Below, one piece after another: positions 7,794 through 22,817 of a stretch of 33,199 nucleotides of DNA. Both the position numbers and the translations under genes were made by a program. Below the pieces are notes generated by a model. It ran no database searches and was not told where the DNA came from. It saw only the letters and a program-made list of their open reading frames with translations. Source of the DNA: Synergistaceae bacterium (lineage in GTDB: Bacteria; Synergistota; Synergistia; Synergistales; Synergistaceae); contig JAISRE010000070.1 of the NCBI GenBank assembly GCA_031273805.1, positions 1-33,199 on the forward strand. The letters run 5' to 3'. Each line of letters opens with the position of its first letter. The stretch's first letter is position 1.

Positions 7794-10100
7794 TTAGTTG
7801 ATGACGTTGTTTCTGGCGTCGTTTCCTGATGTGCGTATATCGCGTGGAGTGAGAACATCGAATACTACTGATTCCGTATTACCATTTGAGAGGACGCTGG
7901 CCTTATGTCTGCCTCTGTGCGCCTCTGTGAAAATTCCGTCCCCTTTGATGTCCGTGCCCACGAATGTTCCGTCGAGGTACCAAAAGTACGGTGGCTTTCC
8001 TTCTGCAGAGAGGAATATTCTTTCGCTCTCCTGTCCGTCTCTGATGATGATCGAATGGCCGGCAAGCGGCCGAATTATTTTAACTTTATCATTATCCTCA
8101 GGTCTGTTCTTTTGAATATTGGTATCAGCATTCTCAACCTGCCTCATCCAGCCGCGTATGGACTGCGGCCATGTGAGAGTGATAACTCCGTTTATATTCG
8201 TGTGCAGTCCGCACAAAGAGAGTGATGAAACATCTTTTATGGCGAGATCAAAGATTTTCTGAGGACAATTTTTAGTTGGCAGCGCTCCGGAGACCGCGCA
8301 CACCGCCCTTGAGTAAATACCATCCGGCCTCGTCGCCGGTGTTTCGGATTCGGGCCATATCTCGCGCATCACCTTGAGCATGATTGGAGTTGCTGACTGC
8401 ATTCCCAAAAGCATTGAGTCTCCAATCCCCAGAGGAGAACCCAGCCAGATTACGACTGTGTAATTCCTGGAGTAACCCGCGCACCACGCGTCGCGGAAGC
8501 CATGAGATGTTCCTGTCTTGAACGCGATAAGCTGTTTTCTTTCCTCGAACAGCTCTTTATAAAGAGGTATCAAACGGCTGGTGTCCTGAAGTATGTTCGT
8601 CGTGATATATGCGGCTTCGGGGGATATCGCTTTATAAGGGGAGACGGAGTGCTCGTTTTTAGTCCAGCGGAGAGGAGTGAAATGTCCCTCGTTAGCTAAT
8701 GCTCTATAGGCGGCAGCCAGTTCAATGAGAGTTACCTCGCATCCGCCCAGGATGAGCGAGTCCGTGTAGTGAGCGCTATCCCTCGTAAGATGTCTGAAGC
8801 CGAATGTGCGAAGTCTGGAGAGCGCGGAGGGGTATCCCACCATGCGAAGCACTCTGACCGCCGGCGCGTTGAGAGATGAGGATAGGGATACTCTGGCGCT
8901 TACCGGTCCTCTGTATGACATATCGAAGTTACGCGGGGCGGAACCTCTGAAAAATAGCGGAGTATCCGCTAAAAGCGACGCGGGCGTCAGCATTCCGCGC
9001 TCAAATGCCTCAGCATATATAAATGGTTTTAATGTCGACCCGGGAGAGCGCGGCGCGTCTCCGCAGTCGACCTGCGCTCCGGGAAGCGCGTCTCCGTGCC
9101 GCGCGTTTCCGACGTATGCCAACACCTCGCCGGTGATATTCTCTACAATTATACCGGCGGCGGTTATTTTCTCCGGATATTCAGCAAGGGCATCTTTTAT
9201 CGTTTTTTCGAGCATCATTTGGAATTTCATATCAAGCGTGGACATAATCATCTGTTGATTGTAGGAACGTCTCGTTGAGTGCATTATGGCCATAGACGCC
9301 TCGTTAGGCATGGGATAACGTTTGCCTATGACCGGCTCCATCTTTGCGAGTTTTATATTTTCCTGGGAAATGACTTTCTGAAGCGCGCCGCGATCCAGTG
9401 TCTTGTTGCGTACTTCACGAGCTCGCTCCGGGAACCTGTCCGGGCGAGTGCGGCTGGGCGAGCGCAGGAGAGATATGAGAACCACCGATTCCCCCAAAGA
9501 GAGCGTGGATGCGCTTTTGTTGAAATATGCCCTGGCTGCCGCCTCGACTCCTCTTATATTCCCTCCGAATGGCGCCCTGTTGAGATATAGCTCCAGAATC
9601 TCATCTTTTGTCATAGTTCGTTCTATTCTTGCGGCTCGCCAGAACTCGGATATCTTAGCCCGTACTGTCCGGTCGCGCGGGTCGGATATCCGTATAACCT
9701 GACTTGTGATAGTCGACGCTCCGGAGACCACTTTCCAGGATATCATGTTTGAGTATGCCGCTCGGAATATGGCCATTATGTCTATGCCGTGATGTTTGTA
9801 AAATCGCTTGTCCTCTATGGCTACTACTGCAGTTGGAAGCCATCTTCCCATTTGATCGAGCGACACAGGGATACACCATTCATCGGATTTTGAGAGGGAG
9901 ACGTTTATCACGTTTCCCTCTCTGTCGAACACTATTTTAGAGAAGTCGTAACTCCTGACATCCCGCAGAGTGAATTCCGGGAGCGAGAAGATATAGAGGA
10001 AGAGTGCCGACGTAAGAAGAAGGCTCGTCACAAAGCATAGGAAAACCCTCTTCATTCCGCGTGCGCTGAATTTGTCAAGTCCTCTTCCTCTACAGATCAT
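7794..10100 (-). CDS. pbpC: Penicillin-binding protein 1C
   Basis: 768 residues. A membrane anchor (about 17-40) is followed by a GT51 transglycosylase domain with AIEDKRFYKHHG (catalytic Glu96) and a transpeptidase domain with SxxK (S355-TL-K358), SLN (409-411) and KTG (528-530). A C-terminal beta-rich BiPBP_C-type domain covers about 665-768. All catalytic residues are present. It polymerises and cross-links peptidoglycan at the periplasmic face. The ATG at 10100 has a strong ribosome site AGGAGGGG and lies 20 bases after the alpha-2-macroglobulin gene. The pairing of pbpC with a yfhM-type alpha-2-macroglobulin is a known, recurrent bacterial gene pair, interpreted as wall repair coupled to protease trapping. 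Confidence 0.95.
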   Translation of the reverse strand: MICRGRGLDKFSARGMKRVFLCFVTSLLLTSALFLYIFSLPEFTLRDVRSYDFSKIVFDREGNVINVSLSKSDEWCIPVSLDQMGRWLPTAVVAIEDKRFYKHHGIDIMAIFRAAYSNMISWKVVSGASTITSQVIRISDPRDRTVRAKISEFWRAARIERTMTKDEILELYLNRAPFGGNIRGVEAAARAYFNKSASTLSLGESVVLISLLRSPSRTRPDRFPERAREVRNKTLDRGALQKVISQENIKLAKMEPVIGKRYPMPNEASMAIMHSTRRSYNQQMIMSTLDMKFQMMLEKTIKDALAEYPEKITAAGIIVENITGEVLAYVGNARHGDALPGAQVDCGDAPRSPGSTLKPFIYAEAFERGMLTPASLLADTPLFFRGSAPRNFDMSYRGPVSARVSLSSSLNAPAVRVLRMVGYPSALSRLRTFGFRHLTRDSAHYTDSLILGGCEVTLIELAAAYRALANEGHFTPLRWTKNEHSVSPYKAISPEAAYITTNILQDTSRLIPLYKELFEERKQLIAFKTGTSHGFRDAWCAGYSRNYTVVIWLGSPLGIGDSMLLGMQSATPIMLKVMREIWPESETPATRPDGIYSRAVCAVSGALPTKNCPQKIFDLAIKDVSSLSLCGLHTNINGVITLTWPQSIRGWMRQVENADTNIQKNRPEDNDKVKIIRPLAGHSIIIRDGQESERIFLSAEGKPPYFWYLDGTFVGTDIKGDGIFTEAHRGRHKASVLSNGNTESVVFDVLTPRDIRTSGNDARNNVIN

Positions 10101-10119
10101 CTGCCCCTCCTGAAGTACG

Positions 10120-13100
10120 TTATTTTATCGTGATTTGCGATGTTTCACCGATGCAACGTATTCCCGGTGAATACATCCCCTCAGCCGCTATCGGCGGGAG
10201 TGTAAATGTGCCGGATGTCACAGCGCGCAGCGCGAACTTCCACGTGAACTCCTTCTGGAACTCATCCACAAAGAGGATCAGTCTGTCGTCTCGAAGTTCT
10301 GCCCTGGAGGTTATGTACGTGTAGTAGTCGCCATATCCTCCTGACGCGTCGCCCTGATTAGGATCTGCGAACCTCGGGTTCTCTATCTCCAGCCCTCCCG
10401 CTAAAGGCAGCGAGACCACTATATTTTGGAGAGTGCCGCCCAATGCCTTCAGCTTTATTGTGCCTATCAACTTATCTCCTCTCTTTACCTGTATGTTTGC
10501 CGGAAGAATTGTCTCCGTGGAATTTGCATACTCCACATACTCCACGGACGCCTCTATTCCGATGCTCTCGGACTCCGGTTTTTCGACCGGCACTCCGTCG
10601 GTCGTCCAAGAGGCAAAGCCCACTCCGTCTCCGGTGTTTTTCACCAGAAGCTGAGTAACTCCGTCGTCAATTTGCTTATTGACGCTCTCGTCTCCGCTGG
10701 AGGACGCGAGGAGCGAGCTATCAGGCCCGGTGAGCTCCAACAGCGCCTTGCCATCCGATGAGTTATAGGAGTAGAACTCAGAGAGGCTCAGCATGGCAAA
10801 CCCCACCTCCTGTGTCGTGTAGAGCGGAGTGTCGTGCAGTGCCCGCAGCAGATCTGAGGCTGCGTTGACCGCGCCGGCGGATGACGGGTCGAGCGCGTTC
10901 CAGGCCAACAGTTGAATAGCCTTTGTCCTGAGCGGTGAGTCGTAGTTAGGAAGCTCCTGATCGTTCTGTGACTTCACTATAGGAGGCGCATATTCGCCGA
11001 TCAGCTCGCGCGCCACTCCCTTCTCGCCCAGTTTGGCGTATGCCGCAGCCAGCAGCAGGCGTCCGTACGGTTGCATAGACGTCAGGTTATCGCGCAGGTA
11101 TGACATCCAGCCCAGCGGGGTCTCCCCGTTGCACGCCAGGACATATGCTATATACGCGCGCAGAGAGAGCCCATTTGCGAAGCTATGGTAGCTCGTGATA
11201 TCCGGAGTCGAGGCGATCACTCGCCTGATGTATTCGAGCGAGGCGCGAAGAGCCTCGCTGGGCGCCTCATACCCGCTCTTATTGCTGGCTATCATGAAGT
11301 GCGTCGCGTATACGCTGCCCCAGTAGTTTGGCGCGCTTCTGTACCAGGAGGTAAACCCGCCGTCGTACGACTGCATGGACTGTATCCTCATCAGCCGACG
11401 CGATATCTGGTAACGAAGCTCCCCTTTGGATACTAGCTTGGCGTCTATCTTCCCCACAAGATCGGGAAGCGAGAGCAGCATCCAGCCTGATGATACCGTC
11501 TGTTCGAGGCAGTAGTACGGATAATTGAGCAGGAATCTGGCCGCGTTGGCCAGTCCTATATCAGGCATGCCGCTCATCGCGACAGCAGCTCTCCTAGTAC
11601 CGGGGAACCAGTTCGCCGGAAGTTCCAGTTGTGCTGTTTCTCCCGGCGCGATTCGAACGGCGCCGCTCTTCGTCACCCTGGGATAGGGAGGTCTCACCGC
11701 CAGCTCGATGACCTGCTCTTGCGTGTTGTCGGCGTAAGTTGCGCGAAGGGTGACCACGGCGACTCCCGACGAGGCGTCCGCCTTGAGCTTCAGCGGGATT
11801 GCGAAGAGTTCATCAGTCGGGGGTATCTCCAGCTCTATAAACAATCTTTTGGGTGAGTCCGTCCTGTTTGACACGTCCTCCGTCTGAAGTATCGAGATGG
11901 GGCCGGCAATTTCCAACTCCGCCGTTATGTCGATTGACGTCCCGGACCTGTTGAAGAGCTGTATCTGTGAGTCGAACTCATCGCCAGGCGCCAGAACCCT
12001 GGGCAGGGTTATATCCGACACCAGGTCGCGAGTGATGGTGGAAAGCTGCTCGAACGATCCAAATGCCCGTTCGCTCGCGGCAATCACCATAAGGCGCGCT
12101 CTGCCCGCGAACTCAGGAACGTCCAGCGAGAAGTCAGCTCTGCCAGTATTATCAGTAATTATACGCTTGACTTCTGTCAGGACTTTGAATCTATTGGCTT
12201 TCACCGGTGAGAGGGATGCCGTCAGCGTCGCCTGCATTGCGTCGTCGCCTCCGCCTGGCGCGAGCGCCTCCGGCGTCTTGAGGTAGATTGGCATAAGCGC
12301 TTCATATATATCATATGCGCCTACGGTCAGTCTTCTCCTCCGCGTGTAGCTCTCCATGAAGTTCGGAGTCCTGTAAGATGTGAGTGAGAGCACGGCGTCG
12401 TCCACCAGTATGACTGAGGCCTCACCGCGCAGAGGACGTCCGTATTTGTCTCGTAGTTGGAGCGAGAAGTCGTTTCTGGCAGCCGGAACTATTTTCTCCG
12501 GAGATGATATCTCAATCGAGAGCACTCTGTCCGACGTGTCTATTTTGATGGGGACCGCTCCGAATGCCCTGTGCGAGGACCAGACATCCTCCGAGACGGC
12601 CGGTTTTATCAGATGGGCGGTGACCCATGCGTTGGGCGCCATCTCCGGCGTCACCTTGAACCGAAATTCGTTCTCCTTGGAGTTATTCTCCTTGACGTAG
12701 TGCTGCAGCACCTCGCTTGTCTCGACTGTCATAAGCATCGAACCCTCAAACGAGCCCGATACATGAGCGACTCCTATGTCTCCGATGGAGTATATCTCCT
12801 TGTCGAGCGTTATATTGAGCGACTCGGACAGAGTTGCCTCCTCCTCCTCGGAGTAGTTCCACCAACCCGGGGAATAGACGAAGAAGTTCTGCGCGGCGCT
12901 GGCGCCGGTATCTGTGTCCTCGACTATGATCTGGTAGCGGCCGGAGAGGGCTATCTTCATTTCGGACGTGTATACGCCGTTCTCAAACGAGATAGGAAGG
13001 CTTTCATAGCCCTCGAGAGGCGTGTATTCATAGTGTATCTCTGAGCGCTGTTCTCCATCAGTGGTAGTGACTATGGTCCGCGATTTTACCCTGTTGATGG

Positions 13101-15645
13101 TAATATGGGCATTCTTCAAGTCGGACGCTATACCCGAGTGCTCTATGGCGGCAATAGAAAACGGTATATCCTTGTTTGTGACGAGGTCGTCGTATGGCAT
13201 CTTTATGCCCAGCAGAGTCTTCCTCGGATAATACGGAAGGGTTACATTCTTATATACCCATCTCCCGCTGTCCTCCATAACGCCGACGTTGTACGTCACA
13301 TCCAGCATCGACGTCGGAACATCCTCGACAGCCGGCAACTCGACGCGCGCATTACCGCTCTCCGATAGATTGCCCACTGCATCGGTGTTTGACCTCTTCG
13401 TGAAGGATATTCTGTTGTCGAAGAAGCCATATCCGCTCCAGTTGGGATGCGAGTATTCCCTGGGAATAAACGTCGAGGTGACCTCGTAGTGCAAACCGTC
13501 CGCAGGAGCGCCAAAGAGGTACTCGGCAAATATGTCGAGAGCGGTGCTCTCCCCTCCCAGAATAATCTCCCTGTCTGCGTTGACCTCCACGAGTATCTTA
13601 GGCGGGGCGAAATCCTCGACCAGGAATTCGCACTCCGCTATTGGCGCGTCATCTCCGGGAATGAGAATATCGATGCTCCATGAACCAGTTGGAGAAGCGT
13701 CGGATAGCTGTATTTCCGTGGACGCCATTCCCAGTTCGGAGAGCGTGACGGTCGACTTGCTCCATTCTCGCCCTGTAGATGTGCGTGTCCTCACCAGAAC
13801 CGGGAACGGTTTCTCCGGCGACAGGTCGGGCTTGCGTATTATCATTTCGACGGGAACGGTCTCTCCGGGGCGAAAGACGCCCCTTGGGGTGAAACATATG
13901 CCCTGATACCCTTCGGTGGGATATGGAATACCCGAGTAGCTGCCGTCGCCGATCTGCCAGATGTTGTCGTTGAAGTGCAGCACGGAGACATCTCCGGCGC
14001 GCTCCAGTATCGCCATTCTCGGCCAGAGGTTCTCATCCCATCTGGAGTCCCTCTTTATCCAGCATACGCCGTTGTAGTCGGTGACGCCGCTCGCCAGCAA
14101 TTGGTTGCTGCTCGAATATATACTCACCTTCACGCCGCTCAGATGCTTGCCGCTGAGTATGGAGTTGGCCCAGATCAACGCGCCCTTGTCGGATATTTTT
14201 GCGCTGCCGGCGATATCAGTTACATTCACTATGCGCGATATACTATTCCAGCTTTTTTCCTCGGAGACTCTCACGTCGAAGAGTCCAAGTCTGCCATTGA
14301 GTATCTTCTTAAGGTCGATGGAGAACTCCTTCCTCTCGTTGGGCTTGGCTCTGGTGTCGTACTTCTTCGAGAATATGTTCTCGGCGAGGTCGTATATGGA
14401 GTATGGCCAGCCATGACGCGCCGCAAAGGGCACGTTATTGTCGTAGACGCGCATTACACTGACTTGAATTTCATACATGTTTACAGTGGAAACAGGTATC
14501 AGCAGCTCGTCATTTGCGGGTGAGATAAACTGTCCCTGAGTGGTGAAGAAGATGTTTGGCTCAATCTCCGGCATGATAAACACCTTTTCCCACTCCTCGA
14601 GCGATGTCGGCCCATCATGAGACGGCAGGCCCTTATGTATCTTGACCGTGATGAGCTCTCGCGGTTTGAAATCCGCGACTATCATAAATGAGCTGCCCCA
14701 TCGTTGTTCGATGCTGAAGGCTCGTTCGGGGGATATTTCGATGAACGAATGCGCCCGCTCGATGTCGATCGGCGTGGATGTCTCTATGTATATGCGGCCA
14801 TTGGAACTACCCTCATAGAATGCATACGATTCGCGCACCAACACCTTCATGTCTCTTTTTATATTGCGTGATACGGGCTTAGTCAGTCCGAGGGGCCCGC
14901 GTTCGCTCGTCAGCCCCTCTTTGATATGGAGCGATATGGGGGATGCGTCATCGGCGGGTACCCGAATTCCCACTGTCGAGGATGTCTCGATATTTCTGAG
15001 TGATGAACTCTCAGGGTTGTCGCCTCGAATCAACGCGCCAGTCTGTGGCTCCGCGCCGTTGAACGAGTAACTTATGCCTCTGTCGCTACCGTCCTTTACG
15101 CTCATGAACTCCTTCAGCTTCGTCGGATTGACCGGATAGTTGAAGGAGATCTCGTAGTCGACATAGTTCTCGTTTACGCTGAAGCCCGTCTGAGCCACGT
15201 TCTTAAACGTAAGAGGAGGGGAGCTGAAGGAGAATACGGTAGGTCCCGTGATAGGCGTTCCGTTCAGATCCTTCAGATCTTCGCGTATGGTGAATTCGTA
15301 TTTTGTGGCGTCCGCGATGATCCCATTGGTTGGTTGGTAAAAAAAGGTCAATGCGTCTGCCCACTTTCCATATCCCGAAAGCGCGGGGGAGATGGAAAAC
15401 GGCATATCCTCACTGGCGAGGAATTCGACGAGGTCCTCGCTTCTGGCAACCTCGGAGGAGAAAACGATCTTGATGACAACAGGCGCTGAGATCTCGCCCT
15501 GTGGGTCGAAGCTTTGGACGGTGAAGATCTTTGGGGCGACCTCCGGCGGAGATGATGCTGCCGCGACGAAGAGCCCTATGATTAAACCCAGAACAAGGAG
15601 CAGTATTAACGCGCGAAGAGGTATTTTGGGTATATGTTCTTCCAC
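10120..15645 (-). CDS. yfhM: Bacterial alpha-2-macroglobulin with thioester motif
   Basis: 1,841 residues. An N-terminal hydrophobic segment (about 11-32) acts as anchor or signal; no lipobox Cys is seen, unlike E. coli YfhM. A series of beta-sandwich (MG) domains with an Ig-like N-terminus follows. A central bait-region/MG7 area is recognised by VILVDDAVLSLTSYRTPNF and the FSLDVPEFAGRARLMVIA segment. The thioester domain carries CLEQ at residues 1379-1382, so it is the thioester-active type. These proteins trap proteases that enter the periplasm by bait cleavage and covalent capture. The start is a GTG with AGGAAG about 12 bases upstream. It is probably co-transcribed with pbpC. Confidence 0.95.
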   Translation of the reverse strand: MEEHIPKIPLRALILLLVLGLIIGLFVAAASSPPEVAPKIFTVQSFDPQGEISAPVVIKIVFSSEVARSEDLVEFLASEDMPFSISPALSGYGKWADALTFFYQPTNGIIADATKYEFTIREDLKDLNGTPITGPTVFSFSSPPLTFKNVAQTGFSVNENYVDYEISFNYPVNPTKLKEFMSVKDGSDRGISYSFNGAEPQTGALIRGDNPESSSLRNIETSSTVGIRVPADDASPISLHIKEGLTSERGPLGLTKPVSRNIKRDMKVLVRESYAFYEGSSNGRIYIETSTPIDIERAHSFIEISPERAFSIEQRWGSSFMIVADFKPRELITVKIHKGLPSHDGPTSLEEWEKVFIMPEIEPNIFFTTQGQFISPANDELLIPVSTVNMYEIQVSVMRVYDNNVPFAARHGWPYSIYDLAENIFSKKYDTRAKPNERKEFSIDLKKILNGRLGLFDVRVSEEKSWNSISRIVNVTDIAGSAKISDKGALIWANSILSGKHLSGVKVSIYSSSNQLLASGVTDYNGVCWIKRDSRWDENLWPRMAILERAGDVSVLHFNDNIWQIGDGSYSGIPYPTEGYQGICFTPRGVFRPGETVPVEMIIRKPDLSPEKPFPVLVRTRTSTGREWSKSTVTLSELGMASTEIQLSDASPTGSWSIDILIPGDDAPIAECEFLVEDFAPPKILVEVNADREIILGGESTALDIFAEYLFGAPADGLHYEVTSTFIPREYSHPNWSGYGFFDNRISFTKRSNTDAVGNLSESGNARVELPAVEDVPTSMLDVTYNVGVMEDSGRWVYKNVTLPYYPRKTLLGIKMPYDDLVTNKDIPFSIAAIEHSGIASDLKNAHITINRVKSRTIVTTTDGEQRSEIHYEYTPLEGYESLPISFENGVYTSEMKIALSGRYQIIVEDTDTGASAAQNFFVYSPGWWNYSEEEEATLSESLNITLDKEIYSIGDIGVAHVSGSFEGSMLMTVETSEVLQHYVKENNSKENEFRFKVTPEMAPNAWVTAHLIKPAVSEDVWSSHRAFGAVPIKIDTSDRVLSIEISSPEKIVPAARNDFSLQLRDKYGRPLRGEASVILVDDAVLSLTSYRTPNFMESYTRRRRLTVGAYDIYEALMPIYLKTPEALAPGGGDDAMQATLTASLSPVKANRFKVLTEVKRIITDNTGRADFSLDVPEFAGRARLMVIAASERAFGSFEQLSTITRDLVSDITLPRVLAPGDEFDSQIQLFNRSGTSIDITAELEIAGPISILQTEDVSNRTDSPKRLFIELEIPPTDELFAIPLKLKADASSGVAVVTLRATYADNTQEQVIELAVRPPYPRVTKSGAVRIAPGETAQLELPANWFPGTRRAAVAMSGMPDIGLANAARFLLNYPYYCLEQTVSSGWMLLSLPDLVGKIDAKLVSKGELRYQISRRLMRIQSMQSYDGGFTSWYRSAPNYWGSVYATHFMIASNKSGYEAPSEALRASLEYIRRVIASTPDITSYHSFANGLSLRAYIAYVLACNGETPLGWMSYLRDNLTSMQPYGRLLLAAAYAKLGEKGVARELIGEYAPPIVKSQNDQELPNYDSPLRTKAIQLLAWNALDPSSAGAVNAASDLLRALHDTPLYTTQEVGFAMLSLSEFYSYNSSDGKALLELTGPDSSLLASSSGDESVNKQIDDGVTQLLVKNTGDGVGFASWTTDGVPVEKPESESIGIEASVEYVEYANSTETILPANIQVKRGDKLIGTIKLKALGGTLQNIVVSLPLAGGLEIENPRFADPNQGDASGGYGDYYTYITSRAELRDDRLILFVDEFQKEFTWKFALRAVTSGTFTLPPIAAEGMYSPGIRCIGETSQITIK

Positions 15646-17127: not shown

Positions 17128-17399
17128 AACATACGCAAACGCCTGAACAATTTTAACATGCGCAGCAGGCGCATTCCAGATAATAGGGGTCCTAGGGGAC
17201 CAGTTCCCCTGACGGGCCTGGGCAGTGCCTGGATTTTACAAAAAAAATGAGCTTATGGGGATTGACTTAATTTGATCAATAGAATCATCGATTCCTGAAT
17301 ATAGGAGGTTGTTATCCGTCCGGTTGGAAGCCACTAATACCAGCATAGGGAGTCAGGGGCCCGGTTCTCTGTAAGAACAAAAAAAGGAGGCAGACAGAG
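17128..17399. other. Intergenic region between bioY and the DUF1659 cassette
   Basis: About 270 bases between divergent genes. It contains overlapping GC-rich inverted repeats around 17188-17211 (GGTCC-tagg-GGACC and AGGGGA-ccagt-TCCCCT), which could form alternative hairpins. A -35-like TTGACT sits at 17262, but no good -10 follows at the right distance. A ribosome-site-like AGGAGG at 17303-17308 has no obvious reading frame. No gene seen. Confidence 0.35.
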
Positions 17400-17618
17400 A
17401 TGGCGGATATTCAGGCATTGTCAGGCAAGTTGGTATTCAAGATGGACAGCGGTGAGGTTAAGGACGGCAAGACGGTTTACCGCAACCTCACCCTGAGCGG
17501 GGTGAACGGCGACTCCCCCCTGGGCGATCTTGGGATGGCGGCGGCGTGTGTCGAGGGGCTGCTAGAGTTCCCGGTGGAGCAGGTCTCTCTGACCAGAGTG
17601 GACGTTCTGAGCTACTAA
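17400..17618 (+). CDS. DUF1659 family small protein
   Basis: 72 residues, no signal peptide or membrane helix. The pattern SGKLVFKMDSGEVKDGKTVYRNLTLSGV with a following short helical stretch fits the DUF1659 family, found mainly in Firmicutes and Synergistota next to DUF2922. Function unknown. A strong ribosome site AAAGGAGG lies 10 bases before the ATG. It is the first gene of the small cassette that runs to 19117; the next gene follows after 45 bases. Confidence 0.85.
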   Translation: MADIQALSGKLVFKMDSGEVKDGKTVYRNLTLSGVNGDSPLGDLGMAAACVEGLLEFPVEQVSLTRVDVLSY

Positions 17619-17663
17619 CGCGGAACGGGCTGAATTTACGAGTTTACGAGGAGGTAAAAAAAC

Positions 17664-17876
17664 ATGAGCGCAAAGACGAATACGCTTTGCCTGAGGTTCG
17701 ACACTCAGGAGGGCAAAATCGCGACGATCAACATCAACAACTGCAAACTTGATCTGACGGTAACCGAGGTGTCGGATGCGATGGACGATCTGATAGACAG
17801 CGGCATTTTTGCCAGCGGGCTGTTGAGCAAACGCGACGCGAAGATCATAGAGCGCACAGTCACAGAGCTGTTTTAG
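17664..17876 (+). CDS. DUF2922 family small protein
   Basis: 70 residues. LCLRFDTQEGKIATININNCK and the ending IDSGIFASGLLSKRDAKIIERTVTELF match the DUF2922 family, whose members end in a similar LxxxxGAxxxxRxxTxLF-like stretch. Soluble, function unknown. Good ribosome site GAGGAGG 8 bases before the ATG. A short charged protein of this type next to a DUF1659 partner suggests the two form a complex (inference). Confidence 0.85.
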   Translation: MSAKTNTLCLRFDTQEGKIATININNCKLDLTVTEVSDAMDDLIDSGIFASGLLSKRDAKIIERTVTELF

Positions 17877-17931
17877 GTCTCTGATCGGATCTCGCGCTCA
17901 ACATGCGCGGATAGATACGTAAATTAAGGAG

Positions 17932-17968
17932 GAGGGAGCGGGATGATAAAAATCTCCTCCCTCTTTTT
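17932..17968 (+). terminator. Terminator/attenuator overlapping a mini-ORF
   Basis: GAGGGAG (17932-17938) pairs with CTCCCTC (17957-17963) and is followed at once by TTTTT, a classic intrinsic terminator after the DUF2922 gene. The left arm is also the ribosome site of an 11-codon ORF starting inside the loop at 17943, so the element could work as an attenuator for the downstream YvrJ-M15-sigma genes. Confidence 0.6.
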
Positions 17969-17978
17969 GTCGAGATAA
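17943..17978 (+). CDS. Possible 11-residue leader peptide
   Basis: ATG at 17943 preceded by GGAGGAGGGAG reads MIKISSLFLSR and stops at 17976-17978. The stop is followed directly by the GGAGG ribosome site of the YvrJ gene. The peptide overlaps the terminator hairpin. It may be chance, but the spacing of all parts is neat. Confidence 0.3.
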   Translation: MIKISSLFLSR

Positions 17979-17989
17979 GGAGGCGCATC

Positions 17990-18151
17990 ATGGAGGAGTT
18001 TGTGGCCGGCGTGCTTCAGGGCACTTTTTCGATAGCTGTGGCGGGGTACCTGCTGGTCAGGATGGAAAAGAGGCTTGACGATCTCACCACCGCTATAACG
18101 CGCCTGGAGAGCGCCATAAATGGGCTATTTCAGAGAGGCGGGGATGTTTAG
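17990..18151 (+). CDS. yvrJ: YvrJ family small membrane protein
   Basis: 53 residues. One hydrophobic N-terminal segment (about 4-23, VAGVLQGTFSIAVAGYLLVR) is followed by MEKRLDDLTTAITRLESAI, an amphipathic coiled-coil-like helix. This is the YvrJ family pattern of about 50 residues. In Bacillus subtilis yvrJ lies beside the two-part sigma factor genes sigO (yvrI) and rsoA; here too a sigma-like gene follows. Ribosome site AAGGAGG lies 8 bases before the ATG. The shape is also holin-like, so a role in passing a muralytic enzyme through the membrane is possible (inference). Confidence 0.8.
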   Translation: MEEFVAGVLQGTFSIAVAGYLLVRMEKRLDDLTTAITRLESAINGLFQRGGDV

Positions 18152-18490
18152 TTGAGGATAAACGACATAAGACTGTCCCCGCACTTCAGGCTAATGGAGT
18201 TCGAGTGCCGCTGCTGCGGAGCCGTGAAACTGCTGCCGGACCTGATAGAGCTTCTGGAGGCGATCAGGTCCGGGTTCGGCAGGCCTATGGTGATAACGAG
18301 CGGTTATAGATGTGCCGGACACAATAGGGCGGTCAGAGGCTCGAAGCGAAGCCTGCACCTGCTCGGAAGAGCCGCTGACGTAAGGGCTGATATGGAAGAA
18401 CAAATGGAGATAGAGAGCCTCGCGAAAAACATGGGGTTTTCAGAAATAATCTGCGGAAATAAAAGCCATTATATCCACTTAGCCCTTTGA
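18152..18490 (+). CDS. Peptidase M15A-type (D-Ala-D-Ala carboxypeptidase-like)
   Basis: 112 residues from a TTG that directly abuts the yvrJ stop codon. The M15_3 pattern is complete: an N-terminal LSPHFRLMEFECRCCG segment, ITSGYRC, then HLLGRAADV (zinc ligands His69 and Asp76) and YIHLAL (His109). These enzymes cut peptide cross-links of peptidoglycan and are common as phage endolysins. No signal peptide, so export would need a holin or lysis; the abutting YvrJ membrane protein is a candidate partner (inference). It is close to the minimal length for the domain. Confidence 0.85.
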   Translation: MRINDIRLSPHFRLMEFECRCCGAVKLLPDLIELLEAIRSGFGRPMVITSGYRCAGHNRAVRGSKRSLHLLGRAADVRADMEEQMEIESLAKNMGFSEIICGNKSHYIHLAL

Positions 18491-18499
18491 TAAGTCGCG

Positions 18500-19117
18500 G
18501 TGATAGACTTCCAAAACTATTTTTTTAAATTTATGCACATAAGAGAGGAGTTTGTGGATAGATTGTACAAGGGAAGAGAGAGACCGAACGAGAAGAGGAG
18601 ACATCCCGGAAGGCGCAGGCTGCATGAGCTCCTGGAGGCTTACGGCCCGTTTGTCAGTCATCTGGCGCACAGGTACAGAGGAAGGGGAGCGGAACCGGAG
18701 GATTTGAGGCAGGAGGGCTACATCGCCCTTTTCGAGCTGGCGAGGCGATTTTCAAAGAAGCAGTATAAGAGGGTCGTGTCGAACTTTCTGCCCGGCATAG
18801 TCCGCGACGCTGCCGCGTCTCTGAGGCATCGCGCCGGCACGGTGCAGCTGTCGGCGTGTGAGGACTCAGACTCGCAAGACGCGGCGCTGATGCCGGCGGA
18901 TAAGGTCGAGGACGGCCGGTCGGCGGACGATTTGGAGCAGATCGAGCTGATGGACGCGATAGAGCGCAAGCTGTCCGGCCCTGATCTCACGATTGTAAAC
19001 GAGCTTCTGCGGGGCTTCACTCACGCGGAGATAGCCGCGCGGCTGGGGATCTCCCAGCAGGCGGCGTCAAAGAGAATAGCGCGCCTGAGGGTGGCACTGA
19101 AGGATATCTGGTCATAG
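18500..19117 (+). CDS. Sigma-70-like transcription factor
   Basis: 205 residues. A region-2-like part (about 46-84, AYGPFVSHLAHRYRGRGAEPEDLRQEGYIALFELARRF) and a region-4 helix-turn-helix (about 163-200, LRGFTHAEIAARLGISQQAASKRIARLR) are joined by an acidic linker. Region 1.1 and region 3 are absent. The start at GTG 18500 has a poor ribosome site; ATG 18533 is possible. It follows the M15 gene by 9 bases, so the four genes from yvrJ on appear to be one unit. The factor could drive its own cassette or phage-like late genes; its target promoters are not known. Confidence 0.82.
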   Translation: MIDFQNYFFKFMHIREEFVDRLYKGRERPNEKRRHPGRRRLHELLEAYGPFVSHLAHRYRGRGAEPEDLRQEGYIALFELARRFSKKQYKRVVSNFLPGIVRDAAASLRHRAGTVQLSACEDSDSQDAALMPADKVEDGRSADDLEQIELMDAIERKLSGPDLTIVNELLRGFTHAEIAARLGISQQAASKRIARLRVALKDIWS

Positions 19118-19134: not shown

Positions 19135-19182
19135 CCATAACGAGCGGCGGCGTGAGAATCCTCACGCCGCCGCTCGTTATGG
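19135..19182. repeat. 22-bp perfect inverted repeat
   Basis: The arms 19135-19156 and 19161-19182 are exact reverse complements (CCATAACGAGCGG and on to GGCGTGAG), separated by only AATC. It begins 18 bases after the sigma gene stop. It could end transcription of the cassette, though no T-run follows on the plus strand, or serve as a cruciform or protein site. Confidence 0.85.
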
Positions 19183-19315: not shown

Positions 19316-20156
19316 CATTAATCATGAATGATTATGCGCAATTTATGCAGGGATAAACTGCTCATATTGCTGTTATTTTTAATAGTAAAACGATAAATGC
19401 TAGGAATATCAAGGGTTTTGTGCTAATTTAGACTCCAGGTGGCTCCGTCACTTTTTATAATGCATAACCATTATGTGTAAGTAGTGAATAAGATTAACTT
19501 TATTGCCTAAGTAATTTTACGTGTCATATATACGTAAAATTTGCAGGTAAAGGGTGACGTATTCGCTATTGGCGATGAATTTGGCGGCCTGTCATCGGAT
19601 AAATCGAGCAAAGAGGCCGAGTTTTATCCCGTAACACAGAGGACCAGCCGATTTGTTGTGTTTATGGGAGCGAGGCTTGAGACAGCCCACAAACGGGGAA
19701 GAGCAAAGTGAGCGGAACAGGCCGGACGAGCCGGACGAGCCAGAAAACTTGGGCTTCTCAAACTCGCGGCGGTCTCCTGTGAATCACTGACGAGTGCGTA
19801 CTTTGAGCGACAATGCCGGTCAGTGGTTCCTCGGATTGAAGAAGGTGGTGAGAGCAGTGTTATGAGCGCAGATTAGTTGTGGTGTATTGGTTGCCTTAAG
19901 TTGAGTTGTGAGAACCGCGCTGTTTGTGCCCGAGGGCCTTTGCGGGCGGAGCGGCGCATGAGGGCATCGCTCGCCGTGGGGGCGGGCGTTTGCTGAAGTC
20001 AGAAGGGCTGATTCATATAATCAGCGGTTATTTAGCGCAGGGTGAGTATCAGTTGGGGATTTCACAGCACAGGGGTATTGCTCTGTCCAGGCGGCGCGAA
20101 TTCTTGGGAGTCGTTTCGCGCCCCCGATATAAACATCTTTGGGGAGGTTTTTGCTT
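19316..20156 (+). promoter_or_regulatory. Long non-coding leader of the surface protein gene, with inverted repeats
   Basis: No convincing gene was found in these 840 bases. They hold a -10-like TATAAT at 19456-19461 without a matched -35, an inverted repeat ATTTTACGT/ACGTAAAAT at 19514-19540, CGATGA/TCATCG at 19573-19597, GGATAAATCG/CGAGTTTTATCC around 19597-19629, and CACTGAC/GTCAGTG at 19785-19825. A closing ribosome site GGGGAGG lies at 20141-20147. The density of stems would suit a structured 5' RNA. I do not recognise a known riboswitch. Confidence 0.4.
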
Positions 20157-22817
20157 ATGAAGTGTAAATGTGATGGAATAAAACGGCGCAGCGCGCTGTT
20201 TATGGCACTGCTAGCCGCGATAGCGCTTATGATAACGGCAGGCGGGGCTTTCGCTGCGGATACGCCATATAAGAGCACGTGGGATGAGACAACTAAGACT
20301 CTGATCATCAAGGATATTCTGCCTATGGCGGAAGGCGGTGTGGACACAGATTACGGAACAGCAGCCAGCAGTGATTTGAAAAATCTGATGGAGAGCAGCG
20401 ATTCGTTCATTGGGGCAAAAGGAATAATTTCACCAGGACAAATCGAGCAGCTCGTCATAACAGAGGAGGCCGCGCCTGGCGCGGGTCAGGCGTACAAAGA
20501 TAAGGGATTCTTCACGTACGAGGACATGGCGTACATTGCCGTCAACATGAGTAGTCTTAAGACACTCGATCTCGGCGATGCCACAGTTGGCGCGAAGTCA
20601 GGGGATAAGCCCGGGATCAGCACGAATCTGAGCAACTTTACAGGTGGAACTTCATCTCCGACCATGAATGATCTGGAGTTCCTCTCACTGCCGAAGGGCA
20701 TGGCCTTTATCTCCGGTGACGTGTTCAGCGGTTTTGTGAATTCTTCTGGTGCTAGTGATAAAGGGCTCTCGCACATCGTATTCCCGGAGACTTTAGCGGC
20801 TATCGGGAAAGATGCGTTTAAGGGCACGCTGGCAACTAGCTTGCGGCTCGAGTTCAAGAGCGAGACCCCTCCTGTTCTGAGCGGTGATATAGCTGATAGC
20901 TACAACTTCTCGAATACTACTCTCGTGGTCCCAGATGGCGCCAAAGACGCGTACAAAAACGCGTACAGTAATAATCCTATAGCGAGCGCAACCACGGGCA
21001 GCGTGACGCTTACGGCATACGCGCCGACGTTCGCGCCGATTACCGATGGCGATACACTGCCTTCGCCTAAGCAAATAACCGTTGAGAACAGCGGTGATAC
21101 ATCCACCACATTCACCGTTATGCTTAATCCTGATAATGAGGTGTTTAAAGTTTACGACAAAGGCGTTTCTCTTGATCTTAAAAAACGCCCCTCATTCACA
21201 GTCGAGGCTAAGGATAGCAGCGGCGCAAATGGTGAGTATAAAGATCTTACGATTGGCCCCAAGGATGGTATAAAGGCCGGCCTCCACAGAGCGACGCTCG
21301 AGGTCAACTACAATCAGGACACAGCGGAAGACATCGTGGAGTTCCTCGTTCGCGAGAAGACGCCTAAGTCCGACATATCGTACCTGACTGAGAGGCTCAT
21401 AGGCCTCGATGTAAGCGGCAGATATACAGTTGGAGCTAAGCCGGTCTCGGCTGACTCCAGAGGGACCATGCCAATCAGCGACGACTGGATGGGACACACT
21501 GTCGATATAGTTAAGCTGAACGCGGCTGCGGAGGCCAACAGCGCCAAGCAGGCGATCGATATCCCAGCGCGTCCCGGGGCGCCGAAAGTCGAGATGATAC
21601 CGGGGAACACGTCCGATGATAAAGGCAAACTGATAGTCCCGGCGGGCGTCGAGTACAGAGTTGAGGGTGCGACACCGTGGATTGACGCGAATGATAAAAA
21701 AGAGATCACACTTCAGAACGGAAAGTACGAGGTGCGCCTGAAGAGCACATACAGCGCGTTCGCCAGCGCAATCACAAAGGTTGAGATCGCGAAGGCCGCA
21801 ATCACACTCAATATCGAGACTCCGATATTCGCTCCGAAAACAGTGGGTTACAGCGAAATACCGTTCCACGCGATCAAGATCAGCAACACCGGCAACCTCG
21901 AAGCTATCATAGATGGCGTAACCCACACCGCCGAGTTTGAGCTAAAAAGCGGCAACGGCTCGGTCCCGGCCGGCGGAGAGGACTATAGCTGGGAGGTGCG
22001 TCCGAAGAAAGATCTGCCTGTGGGCGAATATAAAGGCAGCATCGAGGTCAAATACAAAGACGCCAACAGCAAAGACGTCACTGCGAAAGACAGCGTGACC
22101 TTCAACGTGCTCGCCGCGCCCACGATAAGTACGTTCAAGATCAACGGCGTTGCTGGCAGCATCAACGACGCGGAGGGAACTATAAGCCTCAAGCTGCCAA
22201 ACGGGACGGACCGCACGCAACTCTCCCCGGAGATAGCGCTGACAGACGCAGACTCGACTGTGAGCCCGAAGAGCGGAGAGCCTCAGGACTTCACGAATCC
22301 CGTGGTCTACACCGTCAAGGCTGGAGATGCTGAGAAGAAATACACCGTGACCGTAACCATTGACCCGCGCGTCGAGGGCCGTCTGGTGGACGACAACCCC
22401 AACGAGTGGACCGCGAGCTCTACGGAGAACAAGGAGGCTGGTACATTCAGCTTCGTGATAACGCTCCCGCTCGCGGGCGATGTCAACACGTCCGACATCA
22501 AACCCGGCAGCCTGAAGCTCGAAGCGGCCTTGGGGCTCATCGATACTAAGGTGGAGCTGAAGGATGCCGATAAGACGATCGTCATCACCGGAACCACGTA
22601 TGATCTGGCGAAAGTGGAGATAAGGGGCCTGATCTACGAGCTTATCAGCAAGCCCGGAGTCACCGTCTATCAGAAATTCGACCCGGCGGTGAAGTTCAGC
22701 GACATTCCCAAGTCCGGTTCGACGGGCAAGAACAGCGGCGGCTGTGACGCGGGATTCGGCATAGCCTCCCTCTTGATCGCCGGAGCTGGCGTAATAGCGC
22801 TCAGGAAGAGCCGATAG
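20157..22817 (+). CDS. Secreted BspA-like surface protein with Synergist-CTERM anchor
   Basis: 886 residues from ATG 20157 (ribosome site GGGGAGG; an upstream TTG at 20139 is less likely). Signal peptide about 1-33, cleavage near AFA-ADT. Residues about 110-265 resemble BspA-type leucine-rich repeats (LEFLSLPKGMAFI, LSHIVFPETLAAIGKDAF, a TLVVPDGAKDAY ending). Two related beta modules follow, recognised by APTFAPITDG (about 285) and TPIFAPKTVG (about 555), and then a DUF5018-like domain (TISTFKINGVAG onwards). The tail NSGGCDAGFG plus a hydrophobic stretch and RKSR is the Synergist-CTERM sorting signal, which implies export and processing or anchoring at the envelope. Probably surface binding; the ligand is unknown. 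Confidence 0.85.
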   Translation: MKCKCDGIKRRSALFMALLAAIALMITAGGAFAADTPYKSTWDETTKTLIIKDILPMAEGGVDTDYGTAASSDLKNLMESSDSFIGAKGIISPGQIEQLVITEEAAPGAGQAYKDKGFFTYEDMAYIAVNMSSLKTLDLGDATVGAKSGDKPGISTNLSNFTGGTSSPTMNDLEFLSLPKGMAFISGDVFSGFVNSSGASDKGLSHIVFPETLAAIGKDAFKGTLATSLRLEFKSETPPVLSGDIADSYNFSNTTLVVPDGAKDAYKNAYSNNPIASATTGSVTLTAYAPTFAPITDGDTLPSPKQITVENSGDTSTTFTVMLNPDNEVFKVYDKGVSLDLKKRPSFTVEAKDSSGANGEYKDLTIGPKDGIKAGLHRATLEVNYNQDTAEDIVEFLVREKTPKSDISYLTERLIGLDVSGRYTVGAKPVSADSRGTMPISDDWMGHTVDIVKLNAAAEANSAKQAIDIPARPGAPKVEMIPGNTSDDKGKLIVPAGVEYRVEGATPWIDANDKKEITLQNGKYEVRLKSTYSAFASAITKVEIAKAAITLNIETPIFAPKTVGYSEIPFHAIKISNTGNLEAIIDGVTHTAEFELKSGNGSVPAGGEDYSWEVRPKKDLPVGEYKGSIEVKYKDANSKDVTAKDSVTFNVLAAPTISTFKINGVAGSINDAEGTISLKLPNGTDRTQLSPEIALTDADSTVSPKSGEPQDFTNPVVYTVKAGDAEKKYTVTVTIDPRVEGRLVDDNPNEWTASSTENKEAGTFSFVITLPLAGDVNTSDIKPGSLKLEAALGLIDTKVELKDADKTIVITGTTYDLAKVEIRGLIYELISKPGVTVYQKFDPAVKFSDIPKSGSTGKNSGGCDAGFGIASLLIAGAGVIALRKSR

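Follow-up and report, generated by a model that had tools for sequence, protein, structure and literature searches.

What might five small genes, lying one behind another on the plus strand of a Synergistaceae contig, do together? The window, by which we mean the whole 33,199-nucleotide stretch of DNA analysed, is contig C96 of a 2.7-Mb Synergistota genome in 172 contigs, and the cassette within it has the order DUF1659, DUF2922, YvrJ, M15 peptidase and a sigma factor with regions 2 and 4. A preliminary description had recognised five small genes on one strand, with 0 nt between YvrJ and M15 and 9 nt between M15 and sigma; the open reading frames and their Pfam matches bear out the genes, and both gaps are correct. 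Three further elements had been overlooked (the promoter-like site, the hairpin and the inverted repeat), and we list them here with the genes.

17307 to 17335, plus strand: putative promoter of the cassette sigma factor, GGTTGTTATCCGTCCGGTTGGAAGCCACT, with TTGT at 17309-17312, N19 and CACT at 17332-17335
17400 to 17618, plus strand: DUF1659 protein, 72 aa (Pfam PF07872, 30.1 bits, cut-off 24.1), no evident signal peptide
17664 to 17876, plus strand: DUF2922 protein, 70 aa (Pfam PF11148, 70.9 bits, cut-off 25.5)
17927 to 17968, plus strand: hairpin with T-run resembling an intrinsic terminator, a candidate attenuator in the DUF2922-YvrJ gap (fold z-score -3.7 against shuffles)
17990 to 18151, plus strand: YvrJ-family small membrane protein, 53 aa (Pfam PF12841, 49.3 bits, cut-off 29.5)
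18152 to 18490, plus strand: Peptidase_M15_3, TTG start (Pfam PF08291, 77.1 bits, cut-off 23.2)
18500 to 19117, plus strand: sigma factor, GTG start, 205 aa (Sigma70_r2, 36.8 bits, cut-off 24)
19135 to 19182, no strand assigned: perfect 22-bp inverted repeat with a 4-nt loop, directly 3' of the sigma stop

From sequence comparisons we propose that the cassette is a self-amplifying release switch of the lysis type, a reading to which we would give a probability of roughly 0.6. The inverted repeat at 19135-19182 is likely the 3' boundary hairpin of the cassette; because no T-run follows it, we infer rather than observe a role for it in termination. A search of Rfam returned no match, and PADLOC gave only weak matches, to the HTH part of the sigma factor, and no defence system. 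To our knowledge, no function has been described for YvrJ, DUF1659 or DUF2922, on which the literature that we searched is nearly silent, and the cassette offers a testable role for all three.

Conservation of the cassette across Synergistota

We searched 188 Synergistota genomes and parsed the window together with 80 YvrJ neighbourhoods, 81 loci in all, with HMMs built for this work. The sigma factor is present in 77 of the 188 genomes, YvrJ (above cut-off) in 86, M15_3 in 114, DUF1659 (above cut-off) in 122 and DUF2922 in 132. In 76 of the 81 YvrJ loci, DUF1659 and DUF2922 stand ahead of YvrJ and share its strand, contig ends explaining most of the exceptions, and the full five-gene order is found in 46 of the 81, a count that takes in two loci truncated at contig ends and two that the parser read awkwardly. 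Since the loci were chosen for YvrJ and many of them are related, these figures are a measure of conservation and should not be read as independent trials. M15 precedes YvrJ in all four loci of the deepest family (f11), and about 30 YvrJ loci are without the cassette sigma. On a tree of the concatenated proteins, taxonomic family has to change 12 times, where the least possible number is 9 and shuffling gives a mean of 44.5; this argues for mostly vertical descent of the cassette. No flanking gene family is common to more than three of the 11 taxonomic families, and the cassette genes thus appear to stay together for their own sake. The neighbourhood check suggested in the preliminary description therefore finds, within Synergistota, that the five genes co-occur phylum-wide, the opposite of the outcome that it had named as telling against it.

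A dedicated sigma factor and its putative promoter

The sigma factor had been described as holding only region 2 and region 4 parts, and the profile matches agree: in addition to the region 2 match, there is a region 4 match just under the curated cut-off (23.2 against 25.7 bits), and over its full length the protein matches the sigma70-ECF superfamily model TIGR02937 (60.4 against 42.9 bits). Among 51 relatives the core-binding motif DLxQEG of region 2.2 is well kept (D57 94%, L58 100%, Q60 86%, E61 88%, G62 82%), so the concern that the protein might lack contacts to core RNA polymerase does not apply. With regions 2 and 4, no region 3 and the core-binding motif retained, it has the features of a group IV (ECF) sigma factor.

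Reading the sequences 5' of DUF1659, we noticed two blocks, TTGT and CACT, which were matched in 39 Synergistota loci; their spacing is 19 nt in every one, though 16-24 was allowed. A PWM scan of 1.89 Mb gave 42 sites scoring at least 19, all directly upstream of DUF1659 bar two, one of which lies 5' of a separate YvrJ-M15-sigma operon (G169) while the other is a second, divergent site (L087). The site at 17307-17335 is the sole PWM site within the 33-kb window, and the only convincing one of two matches to GGTTGTN18CCACT in the window's own genome. When the PWM was trained without the family being tested, with a match defined as a score of at least 9 within 180 nt, the motif was found in 35 of 47 sigma-bearing loci as against 2 of 29 others (Fisher p 3.6e-9, a value that relatedness makes optimistic). 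Of the two exceptions, one (G167) has the cassette sigma on another contig with an internal stop, and in the other (G182) the sole sigma match is a distant one elsewhere. The 12 sigma-bearing loci without such a match include the window and some close relatives; the window's site is divergent, with a leave-one-family-out score of 6.6, yet it ranks first in its own locus (p 0.004).

The motif also follows the sigma gene where the cassette has come apart. In split cassettes, in which the DUF pair and the sigma gene lie separately (G169, G116, G117, G118 and G119), it stands at both halves, and five stand-alone sigma paralogues of one genome (G138) bear it, whereas it is absent from L167-L171, L184 and L186, loci without the cassette sigma. 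A strict 19-base form with at most two mismatches is matched in 8 of 11 whole genomes, at nine sites that are all 5' of a cassette DUF1659; it occurs once per cassette copy in these eight genomes, weaker targets being possible elsewhere, and its backward control gave no sites in the 11 genomes. Canonical sigma-70 promoters (at least 11 of 12 matches) show the converse distribution, occurring in 12 of 36 loci without the cassette sigma and in none of 47 with it; a scan of the window region for them found none. The TTGT-N19-CACT motif was not found in the Bacillota loci. On this pattern of occurrence we consider it highly probable that the cassette sigma acts on TTGT-N19-CACT, and a new sigma-factor group would then have a promoter defined by its sequence.

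A terminator inside the cassette

Hairpins of the intrinsic-terminator type (-12 kcal/mol or stronger, with a T-run) occur in the DUF2922-YvrJ gap of 33 of 70 loci, as compared with 1 of 74, 1 of 57 and 0 of 48 of the other three gaps (2 of 179 in total); none of 70 shuffles had one. In family f7 this gap is mostly too short to hold such a hairpin. We suggest that the hairpin may be an attenuator that keeps expression of the lysis and sigma genes below that of the DUF genes. The preliminary description had supposed a self-regulated unit under a dedicated sigma factor, and this supposition gains from a motif that tracks the sigma gene, is found at both halves of split cassettes and in its strict form, in the eight genomes where it is matched, occurs at the cassette only. 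An internal terminator implies that the DUF genes and the lysis and sigma genes are expressed unequally.

YvrJ and M15 as a candidate holin and endolysin

YvrJ consists, as read from the alignment, of one N-terminal hydrophobic helix followed by an amphipathic helix. Among 44 YvrJ proteins, 38 match PHROG 4898, a holin family (best E 3.2e-8); the window's YvrJ alone matches it weakly (E 0.027), and the BhlA Pfam model PF10960 matched none of the 44 at E up to 1. The M15 protein matches the endolysin family PHROG 894 (E 5e-29), and all 69 relatives compared retain its metal ligands (H69, D76 and H109), as well as CxCC and C54, without change. The preliminary description had held that the enzyme lacks a signal peptide, and inspection of the sequence by eye likewise reveals no evident export signal.

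Wall hydrolases that are not related to one another occupy the enzyme slot. In place of M15, a GH108 muramidase follows YvrJ in genus g24 (97.9 against 21.2 bits) and a glucosaminidase-domain protein does so in genus g25 (30.4 against 30.2 bits, a marginal match); by locus, GH108 follows YvrJ in L117 and L132-L134, the glucosaminidase follows it in L102 and L109, and in L104 GH108 is located after the sigma gene. Bacillota add Amidase_3 and CHAP to this list. The holin position can change as well. Aerococcus tenax has the order sigma-like protein, DUF1659 (29.8 bits), DUF2922 (75.5 bits), coiled-coil protein, Phage_holin_Dp1 (103.2 bits) and CHAP+CW_7, the sigma-like protein being weak in Pfam (17.8 against 24 bits) and identified from the annotation of the record; by these matches, a true phage holin and endolysin occupy the YvrJ and M15 positions.

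Given the matches to PHROG 4898, the helix layout, the signal-less M15 protein and the swaps of both enzyme and holin, we think that YvrJ and M15 probably form a holin/endolysin pair. Of the two functions that the preliminary description had entertained, a lysis module and an envelope-stress device, the displacement of enzyme and holin favours the former. The latter would make YvrJ a membrane anti-sigma factor from which stress frees the sigma factor, with M15 remodelling the wall and no holin action. A small single-helix membrane protein beside an ECF-like sigma factor is indeed the usual sigma/anti-sigma layout, which the YvrJ-sigma arrangement resembles, and the sigma factor has regions 2 and 4 only; in addition SigO-RsoA, which transcribes yvrJ (PMC8103513), is an acid-stress system according to the title of a reference cited in PMC10028694. 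YvrJ nevertheless accompanies DUF1659-DUF2922 and an enzyme in the roughly 30 loci that are without the cassette sigma, and on Bacillota plasmids it is again found without a sigma gene; no more than about 25-30 of its residues would be left to bind sigma, it matches a holin profile, and a phage holin takes its place in Aerococcus. M15 has no evident export signal, and the strict promoter motif finds the cassette only and no stress regulon. We accordingly regard the envelope-stress explanation as quite unlikely.

One feature sits poorly with lysis. Synergistota are taken to be diderm. There is no spanin gene in the cassette, and the gaps between its genes are too short for one in most loci; in a diderm cell, absent spanins are a real gap in the lysis reading.

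Occurrence outside the phylum and in phages

For comparison with Bacillota we used a composed, consensus-like YvrJ sequence as a probe and drew on plasmid records. The probe met 82 plasmid records, all Bacillota among the matches listed, and DUF2922 of Parageobacillus as query met 27 plasmids. Plasmids of Parageobacillus and Geobacillus have the order DUF1659-DUF2922-YvrJ-M15-integrase, and a Peribacillus plasmid has DUF1659-DUF2922-YvrJ-amidase-integrase. The order is DUF1659-DUF2922-x-YvrJ-integrase-SSB-amidase on a Psychrobacillus plasmid and DUF2922-x-YvrJ-integrase-amidase on a Vagococcus plasmid that has two DUF1659/DUF2922-like pairs. Of the further YvrJ plasmids, some have a sigma gene and some have neither partner.

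No cassette turned up among 50,697 phage records, in which neither the YvrJ probe nor the Parageobacillus DUF2922 had a match, and three single-protein scans of viral contigs, which reach close relatives only, gave no relative. We note that a degenerate prophage lysis fragment with no present function might be expected to contain genes of endolysin and holin type, as the cassette does, and that M15 matches a phage endolysin profile. The phylum-wide gene order, the invariant catalytic residues and a gene tree that follows the taxonomic families make this explanation highly improbable, as do the want of relatives in phage records and viral contigs and the unshared flanks, on account of which we also rejected an identity of the cassette as a prophage. 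Phylum-wide co-occurrence and absence from phage records rule out a prophage fragment specific to this strain. Single genes of the cassette may still have an old phage origin.

The DUF1659-DUF2922 pair

The two DUF proteins are probable paralogues: hhalign aligns them with a probability of 73% (E 3e-5 for one comparison), and AlphaFold models both as beta-beta-alpha-beta, with pLDDT of 93 for DUF1659 and 81 for DUF2922. Both are near neutral or slightly acidic. A sequence search of the PDB with the two profiles found nothing, and the best Foldseek hits of the two models, phi29 p6 (E 0.04) and a p56-type protein (E 0.08), had low TM-scores and were set aside as not significant.

The pair is separable from the rest of the cassette, and many species have kept it alone. 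In a large genus (g38) it persists without a clear YvrJ, adjoining a glutamine-synthetase-like gene and other genes that by the appearance of their sequences are of housekeeping type. It follows that the pair has some function of its own, and cargo, lysis timer and an independent cytoplasmic function are all possible. That it is released cargo is a suggestion that we make tentatively and think more doubtful than not. We note that DUF1659 has been correlated across genomes with endospore formation (PMC2955703), which the release-switch model leaves unexplained.

A proposed self-amplifying release switch

How might such a switch work? The dedicated sigma factor would direct RNA polymerase to the observed motif TTGT-N19-CACT 5' of DUF1659, and transcription from there would yield much DUF1659 and DUF2922. 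The terminator after DUF2922 would pass only part of the transcripts into yvrJ, M15 and sigma, and read-through to the sigma gene would close a positive feedback loop, by virtue of which most cells may leave the unit off while a few express it to the full. YvrJ, if holin-like as its profile matches and the endolysin and holin swaps suggest, would let the signal-less M15 endopeptidase through the inner membrane to the peptidoglycan, which the enzyme would then cut. DUF1659 and DUF2922, made as a pair, would be either the released material or partners that time the switch. On this proposal, the cassette points to programmed release of a cell's contents as an ancient trait that a whole diderm phylum has handed down mostly by vertical descent, and not as an accident of prophages. 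One may go further and imagine a phylum-wide, bistable and altruistic switch, in which a few cells fill with a DUF1659-DUF2922 complex and are opened by YvrJ and the endolysin, releasing the complex to serve outside as a public good or a weapon. We regard this fuller version as speculative and rather improbable; if true, the DUF pair would represent a new type of protein assembly that cells release, common to Synergistota and Bacillota plasmids.

Holin-like proteins can also secrete without lysis (PMC9527704), and YvrJ and the hydrolase might instead open a limited passage across the envelope, through which something built from DUF1659/DUF2922 is secreted or assembled, or DNA is moved in connection with competence. 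On plasmids of Geobacillus, Parageobacillus and Peribacillus a gene lies just 5' of DUF1659 whose product is ComK-like where tested (25.3 against 22.3 bits in Peribacillus, weak in Parageobacillus), though ComK boxes 5' of DUF1659 on the plasmids are isolated partial sites with no clear pair. A comparison of competent with non-competent B. subtilis gave values of 8.7-fold for rsoA and 3.9-fold for sigO (PMC7317962), and some small plasmids have the cassette beside integrase and SSB genes; against this, we noticed no competence gene near the Synergistota cassettes, and the fold searches with the DUF proteins gave nothing significant. Sequence alone cannot separate lysis from non-lytic passage, and we think the latter unlikely.

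Comparison with known systems

By analogy, the cassette may be a sigma-controlled holin/endolysin release unit with variations of its own, and it would seem to work most like UviA/UviB/amidase/Bcn5 of the C. perfringens plasmid pIP404 and its relatives (PMC9527704), with which it shares a dedicated sigma factor, a one-helix holin-like protein, a signal-less endolysin, signal-less cargo candidates and location on a plasmid or chromosome. The UviB system has a BhlA-family holin, an amidase and one bacteriocin, whereas the cassette has YvrJ, M15 and two DUF proteins, is found throughout a diderm phylum and has a terminator inside it. The cassette sigma is placed by the general sigma70-ECF model, which does not imply that it and UviA belong to the same sigma group, and the likeness of YvrJ to the BhlA and TpeE holins, as described in PMC9527704, is one of topology only. 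The clostridial TcdR/TcdE release loci (PMC9527704) share a sigma-type regulator beside a holin-like release protein; they have a group V sigma factor, a polytopic holin and large cargo proteins, and the cassette is without such cargo. The likeness to the Type 10 secretion lysis cassettes ChiWXYZ and YenLC (PMC10847048) would be looser. These share a domesticated holin and endolysin outside a prophage, whereas the cassette has no spanins, a sigma regulator, another holin family and no known cargo, and so falls outside the definition of a T10SS.

The preliminary description had tied yvrJ to the two-part SigO-RsoA system. This holds insofar as yvrJ is transcribed by that system in B. subtilis (PMC8103513), where it is likewise under a private, self-transcribing sigma factor, but the cassette sigma is a single polypeptide, with regions 2 and 4 both on one 205-aa protein rather than on separate ones. 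The regulon as described includes no M15, DUF1659 or DUF2922, and oxdC is its best-known output (PMC8103513). The cassette also suggests why yvrJ should be among the genes that SigO-RsoA transcribes in B. subtilis.

DUF1659 and DUF2922

On the 11-kb Vagococcus plasmid p11, two consecutive DUF1659-like/DUF2922 pairs precede YvrJ (L193:1444-2525), an arrangement which suggests that the two proteins are produced as a pair. Two further members of the genus to which the window belongs, genomes G144 and G148, contain about eight scattered ORFs of 135-213 aa that lie apart from the cassette and carry a DUF1659-like domain with the pattern CRLAIQVCxGHFPDGRERHRTxSxKNIxPDAD, including:

L176:405-1028, DUF1659-like ORF
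L178:2039-2548, DUF1659-like ORF
L179:2998-3549, DUF1659-like ORF
L180:2041-2523, DUF1659-like ORF

Upstream regions and sigma copies

Geobacillus-group and Peribacillus plasmids carry a similar-sized gene immediately upstream of DUF1659:

L194:2828-3358
L196:3561-4067
L195:3589-4119
L199:3589-4008

Where tested, this gene is ComK-like (above the Pfam cut-off in Peribacillus, weakly so in Parageobacillus), whereas in Synergistota a putative sigma-driven promoter lies upstream of DUF1659. Some 60 nt before DUF1659, four loci of the deepest Synergistota family, f11 (L088, L090, L099 and L100), have in common a block, TATAGCAAA...CATCTATATAGGTGGA, that differs from the putative promoter TTGT-N19-CACT and may be recognised by a diverged sigma factor.

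Genome G138 holds five additional copies of the cassette sigma gene (L236-L240), each with a TTGT-N19-CACT site. IS-like genes adjoin these copies, some of which also lie beside surface-protein-like genes. Could transposition have spread these paralogues?

Genes outside the cassette in the window

20139-22817, large secreted-looking protein, directly after the cassette
7794-15645, minus strand, genes for penicillin-binding protein 1C (PBP1C) and an 1841-aa protein

The first protein has weak DUF5018-like and LRR_5-like matches and a C-terminal tail resembling a sorting signal; no cassette promoter was found in front of its gene. The very large 1841-aa protein, alpha-2-macroglobulin-like in the appearance of its sequence, adjoins PBP1C (624 bits), a pairing that resembles the known PbpC/alpha-2-macroglobulin arrangement.
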